Shown here: positions 21,820-23,147 of the stretch, one piece after another | Numbering within the stretch: position 1 is the first letter of the stretch | Layout of the letters: each line of letters opens with the position of its first letter | Assembly (NCBI RefSeq): GCF_014651375.1 | Contig: NZ_BMWT01000008.1 | Coordinates: 62,001-126,000 of the forward strand | Reading direction: 5' to 3' | DNA: 64,000 bases | Source of the DNA: Tateyamaria omphalii | GTDB taxonomy: Bacteria > Pseudomonadota > Alphaproteobacteria > Rhodobacterales > Rhodobacteraceae | Program-made: the position numbers and the translations under genes | Notes under the pieces: model-generated | Databases searched by the model: none | What the model was told of the DNA's origin: nothing | Seen by the model: the letters and a program-made list of their open reading frames with translations, nothing else

Positions 21820-22459
21820 TCTGACGTCAGCGCCTACCGGACGCCGTGCCGAGCGGGGGAGGATATGCCGCGAAAGCCTGTTTTCTGACGGGGCAGGATC
21901 TGTCATGGGCAGACCGCGACCGAAAAGTCGTCTGATGAGCTGAGACAACCACAAGCGTTCAACGGTAAATGCTGCAACTATGTCCGGCTTGTCCTCACGC
22001 TAGATCTTTCTTGGAGTTGTTAGGCTCTGGGCTCATTGATTTCGGCCTGACGGCATGGTTCACAGCTGAAAAGCGAGCAGTGAACATGTCTGATCTATTC
22101 TGGTTGAGCGATGCGCAGATGGCGCGCCTGGAACCCTATTTTCCCAAATCCCATGGTAAGCCGCGCGTTGATGACCGACGTGTGTTGAGTGGGAGTATCT
22201 TCATCAATCGCAATGGCTTGCGTTGGCGCGACGCGCCGGCGACATACGGGCGGCACAAGACGCTCTATAACCGCTGGAAGCGCTGGAGCGACAAAGGCAT
22301 CTTTGCCCAGATGATGGCGGGTCTGGCCGCCGGTCATGGCGAAGAGAAAACCGTGATGATCGACGCAACGTATCTCAAAGCCCACCGAACAGCGACCAGT
22401 ATGGGCGTGAAAAAGGGGGGCGTGGACGCCTGATCGGACGCACCAAGGGCGGCATGAAC

Positions 22460-22500
22460 CAATGACCGGCAGGTGATTGGTACAATCACCGAGAGGGGCC
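22460..22500 (+). repeat. Small hairpin insertion A inside the transposase
   Basis: Between codons for GGMN and KLHAI of the transposase lie 41 extra bases. They contain a hairpin with arms GGTGATTG and CAATCACC and end in CCGAGAGGGGCC. The same end, reversed, closes insertion B at 22627-22670. Confidence 0.7.
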
Positions 22501-22626
22501 AAGCTACATGCCATCTGTGACAGCCAGGGACGACCTCTTGATCTGTTCGTGACCGCCGGACAGGTGAGCGATTACATCGGGGCCCGCGCCTTGCTCAGCA
22601 GCTTGCCGAATGTGGATTGGCTGCTC

Positions 22627-22670
22627 GGCCCCTCTCGGGATCATGCTGCGCATAACCCTGTCGGGCAATG
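22627..22670 (-). repeat. Small hairpin insertion B, inverted copy of A
   Basis: Read on the - strand, these 44 bases begin CATTGCCCGACAGG and end CCGAGAGGGGCC, matching the ends of insertion A (CAATGACCGGCAGG ... CCGAGAGGGGCC). The middle differs but again folds (GGG..ATGC / GCAT..CCC). It lies within the LLG-DRGYD motif of the transposase. Confidence 0.7.
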
Positions 22671-22936
22671 GATCGCGGCTATGATGCGGATTGGTTCAGA
22701 GAAGCGTTGCAAGACAAAGGGATACGCCCATGCATACCGGGCCGAAGACAACGCAAGAAACCCGTCAAGTATGACAAGCGGCGCTACAAACGCCGCAACC
22801 GTATCGAAATCATGTTCGGCAGGCTCAAAGATTGGCGGCGCGTAGCGACCCGATACGATAGGTGCCCGAAGGTCTTCCTGTCAGCTATCGCTCTCGCGGC
22901 CATCGTCATCTATTGGTTATGAGGCCTGAGCCTAAC

Positions 22937-23147
22937 GGCCAGGGCGTTTGGCTTGCCCACATCCCCTGAGCCACAGCAAGGGATGTGGCCCTGCGACAGC
23001 CAGGTCTCAATGTATTCTTAGAATGGTCAGTGGTTATTGGGGTGACACGCGGCGAAATCTGGCAGCGAGCCCAAATTGACCAATGCCGGGCAATGAACCA
23101 ATGTCGACCAGCAAAGAGGCAAGATATTTGTAAGAGGTTCGAAGTCG
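22937..23147. other. Intergenic stretch after the IS element
   Basis: A 211-base stretch with no recognisable gene. AAGAGG at 23132-23137 near its end is the probable ribosome site for the small membrane protein that follows. Confidence 0.4.

Follow-up and report, generated by a model that had tools for sequence, protein, structure and literature searches.

What are two short extra segments doing inside a single transposase gene? The question is raised by an IS5-family element in the window, as we call the whole analysed stretch of 64,000 nucleotides from Tateyamaria omphalii. The preliminary description, made from the letters alone, answered that a small dispersed hairpin repeat had inserted there twice, in opposite orientation. 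The closest full-length relative of the element, designated L011 (G000:C1:102115-102951), is located in the same genome and is 72% identical to it. The alignment of the two has just two large gaps inside the transposase gene, of 38 and 41 nt, corresponding to hairpin copies 1 and 2; both insertions thus lie where they had been placed and interrupt one gene from opposite strands (Table 1). The site of copy 1 is empty in L041 and L011, and the site of copy 2 in L041 and L190, so these relatives lack the segments. L011 is 837 nt long vs 918 nt for the window element, and on these figures the argument that removal of both segments restores the typical length holds. Among the related plasmid matches listed, most were annotated as IS5 family transposase.

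Table 1. Coordinates of the interrupted IS5-family element and its two hairpin insertions (window positions)
Feature	Position	Strand	Description	Basis
IS5-family element	22019-22936	+	918 nt	Inverted-repeat search; end-to-end alignment with L011
IS5 terminal inverted repeats	22019-22036 and 22919-22936		18-nt arms, 89% complementary	Repeat search
ORF A of the IS5 transposase	22086-22433	+	Start codon, judged from the sequence, the ATG of MSDLFWLSD	ORF list; alignment
Hairpin copy 1	22460-22498	+	39 nt, same sense as the transposase; lies between the MN and TK codons	
Perfect stem of copy 1	22472-22490 (arms 22472-22479 and 22483-22490)	+	8 bp, 3-nt loop	Centroid fold; core fold
ORF B stretch between the inserts	22499-22628	+	130 nt; GGGG ends of copies 1 and 2 face each other	Alignment
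Hairpin copy 2	22629-22670	-	42 nt, antisense, directly 5' of the Asp codon in LLG^DRGYD	
Stem-loop core of copy 2	22637-22658	-	GGN + 6 bp + 3-nt loop, bulged T on the 3' arm	Model R1 structure; fold

Both segments interrupt the transposase gene, as first described, but the TGA that ends ORF A at 22433 predates them: it lies upstream of both inserts and is present at the aligned position in L011, and is therefore not due to them. This shared TGA would fit a frameshift of the kind by which ORF A is linked to ORF B in the IS427/IS1031 group.

Read on their own strands, the two copies have CAWTG-MCCGRCAGG ... CCGAGAGGGG in common and differ in the middle (CAATGACCGGCAGG-(15 nt)-CCGAGAGGGG and CATTGCCCGACAGG-(18 nt)-CCGAGAGGGG), in agreement with the earlier reading that the ends match on reversal. 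The stem of copy 1 is taken from the centroid and core folds; its minimum-energy fold differs. With the covariance model described below, copy 1 scored 32.3 bits (E 7.8e-6) and copy 2, which is row 1 of the model's alignment, 61.3 bits (E 1.2e-13). The significance of the inserts comes from this family, since the statistics of the window alone give no support. In the window, CCGAGAGGGG with at most one mismatch had 9 matches vs 4.71 expected, a number reached in 6 of 100 shuffles, and neither insert folded clearly better than shuffled versions (z -1.72 and -0.21; 9/200 and 79/200 shuffles fold as well). An Rfam search of 21900-23100 gave nothing on the inserts and one sub-threshold match at 22826-22958.

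A family with fixed ends and a variable stem

Further copies were sought with the exact pattern GGCAGG-N(8-34)-CCGAGAGGGG, the reversed pattern serving as the control. In the genus, 21 matches were found in 13 of 20 genomes, with the control in 0/20; at least one of the matches (L017) does not resemble an element. In the family, sampled by 394 genomes standing for 393 genera, 132 genomes were positive vs 11 for the control (hand-counted). The exact-pattern matches include some chance strings without a hairpin. A covariance model derived from an alignment of 55 distinct copies detected 107 copies in the 20 genus genomes, with at least one in 18 of them. The window's genome had five matches at E <= 0.01 and three at E <= 1e-4 with stricter filters. 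Other genomic copies are thus present, as expected of the small dispersed repeat first proposed, and the interpretation in the preliminary description is supported. At E <= 1e-4 with stricter filters, the class-wide model search was positive in only 12 of 289 genomes, four of which belong to the same family. A pattern scan of named genomes gave at least 120 stretches. Nearly all of the 80 records listed bear names of Rhodobacteraceae or relatives, the exceptions among them being single Rhizobium, Labrenzia, and Rhodospirillales records. The pattern also matched 75 plasmid records, five genera among these being unnamed; the named ones we take to be Rhodobacterales. In viral contigs the pattern turned up 14 times, not always as a hairpin.

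No published name or description of this hairpin family was found by title or abstract among the papers listed, subscription papers, preprints, and figures lying outside the search. About half of the 15 listed papers containing the literal motif were Mycobacterium tuberculosis typing papers, which presumably use a primer containing it, and they were set aside as chance.

The elements consist of conserved ends, CRYTGCCCGGCA ... GAGAGGGG, enclosing a stem of variable sequence in which pairing is kept. Among the folds listed, the stem between the ends measures some 6 to 11 bp and usually has a 3-nt loop. From 205 exact matches, 178 passed a filter on the preceding bases, and the 164 of these with distinct left flanks gave the consensus C-R-Y-T-G-CCC-GGCA-GG on the left and CC-GAGA-GGGG on the right. 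GRCAGG and CCGAGAGGGG in it are set by the search pattern, and CCC and the TG/CG before CCC partly by the filter. The consensus ends are asymmetric, and terminal inverted repeats are lacking.

Conservation of structure without conservation of stem sequence, already supposed in the preliminary description, was evident in the 55 distinct copies of one length class. Pairing was kept in 97.1% of 660 cells vs 81.2% in shuffles, doubly changed cells numbered 89 vs 30.6, and the covariation score was 0.356, whereas shuffled versions gave 0.091 and slid ones no more than 0.057. Of the five measures, two stayed close to the shuffles: pairs changed on both sides (6 of 9 vs 4.8) and further pair types (13 vs 11.9). 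The manner of finding the copies fixes the ends and the outer GG/CC pairs, but not the inner pairs.

The two strands are not equivalent. For folding, 251 of 263 copies were parsed. Among 194 distinct cores, G.T mismatches outnumbered A.C mismatches (71 vs 26), the written strand folded better in 70 and the complement in 34 (equal in 90), and a bulged T occupied one fixed place of the 3' arm in 79. Binomial p-values were 5e-6 for the mismatches and 5e-4 for the fold; they are uncorrected for relatedness of the copies and thus optimistic, related copies not being independent. The G.T excess, the fold bias, and the bulged T on one strand suggest that the hairpin is recognised as a single strand, although an RNA hairpin would fit the asymmetry equally well.

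Insertion sites and evidence of mobility

Both flanks were at least 100 nt long in 252 copies, and for only 68 of these was an empty relative available among the fetched loci. In 65 of the 68 comparisons the flanks were 0–2 nt apart at the empty site, most often 1 nt (46 of 65), and the base in this gap was usually a G, readable as the final G of GGGG; in the remaining three they stood 3, 4, and 10 nt apart. The insertion point is thereby located to about one base. Target duplications, which the preliminary description had suggested as something to look for, were absent from the same 65 of 68 comparisons. This bears on the idea of a MITE that an ordinary DDE transposon would mobilise in double-stranded form. 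Such an origin would account for short, non-coding, dispersed sequences with close pairs and identical copies within one genome; we nevertheless consider it very unlikely, as MITEs have terminal inverted repeats and target duplications, and the asymmetric ends of this element come with neither.

The bases before insertion at the 65 sites were C at -1 (68%), T at -2 (62%), and G at +1 (69%), which gives a target of about YYCRTC^G, a preference and no strict rule. Of the tetranucleotides directly preceding 209 copies, CATC (41), CGTC (22), and TGTC (11) were counted, and empty sites already show a CRTC-like motif before any insertion. The two element junctions have no base in common. A weak association was seen between element bases 2–3 and target position -2; mosaic repeats with a shifted boundary may be its source. 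Guidance of the target by the stem was considered and rejected: in 248 copies, stem and flank shared 183, 75, and 22 5-, 6-, and 7-mers vs 190.0, 83.4, and 25.8 after re-pairing.

By eye, the same sites recur at conserved transposase motifs across genera and with other stems. The RLIG site of IS5 was occupied by at least four stem types, and the DRGYD site is occupied in the window, L028, and L255 (both by eye). A frame-keeping length is found in only 35 of 263 elements. The window inserts, which add a net 38 and 41 nt, do not have one, and in this the family is unlike the Rickettsia palindromic elements, which are inserted in frame and leave the protein functional.

A case of apparent repeated insertion comes from genome G153. 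Three IS5 copies there lie in different surroundings and are 82.9–85.6% identical to each other once the element is left aside; all three have an identical 42-nt element at the same base, directly 5' of the Asp codon in VMI^D. A fourth, partial IS5 copy has the site empty, and two smaller fragments stop short of it. The flanking runs identical in the three copies measure only 5–8 and 4–12 nt. Gene conversion would have had to proceed through very short tracts, and independent insertion appears to be the simpler account of these sequences. The stem of this element has CATCAC in common with the target flank.

IS3 copies on plasmids of Paracoccus marcusii and Leisingera thetidis lack the element where a relative, 87% and 92% identical, respectively, has it. 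Two plasmids of Pseudosulfitobacter pseudonitzschiae, CP070878.2 (L335) and NZ_CP086888.1 (L339), have in common a block of roughly 1.1 kb with 97.7% identity, in different surroundings, and the element has the same position on both. The interrupted IS3 may still have moved, or the site may have been hit twice. A block and element found together in this way, as if moved together, would be expected of a segment that behaves like an intron or is bypassed in translation, with the gene still functional, as would the placement of a conserved structure within genes. Against this, the element occurs in both orientations relative to the gene, even within the one gene of the window, and several times per gene. 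The empty copies of P. marcusii and L. thetidis are annotated as IS3 family transposase, and an interrupted IS could move in trans; we hold this explanation to be extremely improbable. A third empty copy of the same IS, in Paracoccus jeotgali, has no annotated feature, nor do the interrupted stretches in Phaeobacter inhibens and Pseudosulfitobacter.

Chimeric junctions, with the left flank from one IS5 site and the right flank from another, were seen by eye in L020, L175, and L252. They are consistent with deletion or recombination between two element copies of the same orientation.

The surroundings of the copies were characterised by Pfam searches of 100 flank peptides drawn at random from 262, with counts per family, 25 of the 37 families being listed. 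Transposase domains were represented by rve (11), DDE_Tnp_1 (8), and HTH_Tnp_1 (5), and the IS66, Mutator, IS21, and IS110 types by one or two matches each. Summing the listed families, taken as mutually exclusive, at least 29 of the 100 peptides lie in transposases. A few flanks matched ordinary genes, for example a phage integrase (1), a DNA methylase (1), and short-chain dehydrogenases (2). Many copies belong instead to longer intergenic mosaic repeats, in which the element is one block among short palindromes, as in G000:C4:114541-115956 (L237) and G014 (L262-L267). By eye, about eight similar ones occur in G014, and mosaics likewise in G002, G006, G011, G016, G017, and G019.

Copies are clustered. 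In the genus, 35 of 107 fall in 17 clusters within 600 bp (hand-counted), whereas 0.1 to 2 close pairs would be predicted if copies were spread uniformly over the whole genome or over 5% of it. L128 has one IS with five elements and L100 one with four and another with a changed right end, in both cases a single IS by our reading. This same IS of L100 (L100:735-1965), with GGTAATCCCCCC ends, is apparently itself inserted into a hairpin loop region, AAGC being repeated at the junction. Of 70 close element pairs, in loci fetched around elements, 44 were tandem, 20 convergent with GGGG ends facing, and six divergent. In L096, L073, and L172 an apparent IS110-family gene ends about 48–65 nt from the element with one and the same layout, which may reflect a preferred site in the tail of IS110; elsewhere, IS110 loci are arranged differently.

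The recurrence of transposase domains in the flanks, the crowding in L128 and L100, the clustering in the genus, the repeated use of conserved transposase motifs, and the rarity of frame-keeping lengths are what one would expect if a host-encoded or selfish system steered hairpins into transposases and so silenced transposons. Yet transposons, free of purifying selection, can gather insertions passively, many copies are intergenic mosaics, and some flanks match genes of ordinary function, short-chain dehydrogenases among them. Because one strand of the target motif includes GAY, hits in conserved Asp codons are to be expected in any case. An effector gene did not emerge, and element length is dictated by the stem classes. 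Steering of this kind we regard as improbable, and similarly doubtful is its more specific version, a dedicated Rhodobacteraceae system inserting shape-recognised, stem-variable hairpins into the transposases of many IS as a means of silencing transposons.

The search for a mobiliser and the proposed mechanism

A RAYT-like (Y1) transposase had been suggested as a possible mover of the repeat. In the window's genome PF01797 (Y1) had no match at E <= 0.001. Of the 394 family genomes, 38 gave a Y1 match; the exact pattern was present in 15 of these 38 vs 117 of the 356 genomes without Y1 (Fisher p 0.47). Among 15 Y1 loci the pattern occurred in two, one without a hairpin by eye and the other near the gene without flanking it. 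A Y1 transposase as a required co-resident partner was therefore rejected. PF04986 (Y2, IS91/ISCR type) was also absent from the window's genome. Across the family, the pattern was found in 22 of 45 genomes with Y2 vs 110 of 349 without, a weak excess (p 0.028, uncorrected for genome plasticity). Among the 14 family genomes with at least five exact matches, seven have neither Y1 nor Y2 (hand-counted), and since Y2 is absent here and, together with Y1, from half of these element-rich genomes, it is not required either.

Nor did an autonomous form, carrying a gene between its left and right halves, emerge from the loci. In 307 loci there were 60 left halves without an exact right half; inspected by eye, these were mostly complete elements with variant stems or slightly altered right ends, and some were chance. 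Seven distant half-pairs in five loci all start at a variant element. Genes recurring near the element formed 15 clusters of at least four distinct proteins, with no mobiliser among them. The largest were read, without Pfam, as IS3, IS5, and IS110 transposases, the position of the IS110 type relative to the element varying. It is possible that the transposase comes from a passing plasmid, is extinct, or lies outside the Pfam models used.

There is good evidence, from comparison of sequences, that structure is conserved over sequence and that insertion is clean and site-preferring. Single-strand HUH transposases of the IS200/IS605 type likewise insert their elements cleanly 3' of a short motif and recognise a strand-specific hairpin. 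Taken as a whole, the explanation that we favour, and judge to be probable, is a REP-like family of non-autonomous mobile hairpins of about 40 nt, found mainly in Rhodobacteraceae, which insert cleanly at preferred sites, presumably through an HUH-like enzyme acting in trans. One strand of the element would fold into the hairpin. What is recognised would be the foot, CCC/GGG plus the GGCA/GAGA internal loop, together with the fixed ends, the stem sequence being irrelevant. An enzyme supplied in trans would then cut and join single-stranded DNA by analogy with IS200/IS605 and REP systems. The comparisons place the inserted hairpin 3' of a YCRTC-like target, usually before G, in either orientation and without duplication. 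An HUH-like mechanism is proposed because clean insertion behind a short motif, the lack of duplication, and a strand-asymmetric hairpin come together here. Minimal IS200/IS605 elements share these three features with the present family. The present family differs in that its motif is preferred and not strict, in having one hairpin and not two ends, and in that Y1 is not co-resident.

Integron attC sites are similar in layout, with fixed ends, a variable imperfect hairpin, and an extrahelical base on one strand, and the element might accordingly be a folded single-strand site of a tyrosine recombinase. Its consensus ends are, however, neither complementary nor inverted copies of each other, the GTTRRRY core with its GTT was not seen, the junctions lack a common base, and neither a cassette gene nor a linked integrase accompanies the element. 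We give this possibility only a slim chance.

Comparison with known repeats and significance

The nearest described elements are the CGTC-tagged REPs (Di Nocera 2013, PMC3733652), which include Neisseria dRS3 and Rickettsia RPE-4/RPE-6. According to the text of that paper they predominate in alphaproteobacteria, and a dedicated transposase seems to be lacking. The Rhodobacterales names that we looked for are absent from this text, the figures lying outside the search. The tag that defines them is CGTC, or else TGTC or CCTC, at one end. Both groups are short palindromes with a variable stem and CRTC/CGTC next to one end, sometimes intragenic, mostly alphaproteobacterial, and without a known dedicated transposase. 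The present family might thus be a member of the CGTC-tagged super-family of alphaproteobacteria and be moved in the same way. In favour of this, CRTC or a similar motif often precedes the element, several of the published repeats are variable-stemmed, and intragenic REPs, at times two per gene, are described in the same text (PMC3733652). The differences, as far as the published text goes, are that CGTC REPs have stems of 8–9 bp that nearly always start with AT pairs and mostly CCA tails, and are mostly intergenic, the named intragenic ones being largely in genes of DNA synthesis and repair (PMC3733652). The present element has longer fixed ends, a CCC/GGG foot and GGCA/GAGA internal loop ahead of a stem that starts differently, and a 3' flank without CCA. 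Its hosts are prominently transposases, its lengths mostly break the frame, and its CRTC-like motif pre-exists at empty sites. On balance, we consider membership possible but rather unlikely, and retain the reading of a REP-like family that would be moved by an HUH-like enzyme in trans.

GTAG REPs moved by TnpA-REP (RAYT) offer a second comparison. According to the published text they have a hairpin, bulge-interrupted in one of two groups, with a motif in front, and are processed as single strands (PMC8266576). A bulged hairpin behind a short motif is common to both, single-strand processing being a feature of the GTAG REPs (PMC8266576). In contrast to these, the 5' end of the present element is CRYTG after a YCRTC-like target, with no GTAG, its stem sequence is not conserved, and no Y1 gene was detected in the window's genome.

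The family bears on how short palindromic repeats move without a known transposase; the CGTC REPs, according to their describers, seem to lack a dedicated one as well (PMC3733652). With 68 before-and-after sites, a target motif, an insertion point, and the triple insertion in G153, movement of the present family becomes directly testable. The presence of a CRTC-like motif prior to insertion may bear on the nature of the CGTC tag in REPs. Small hairpins break the transposases of several IS families, which bears on the decay of transposons.
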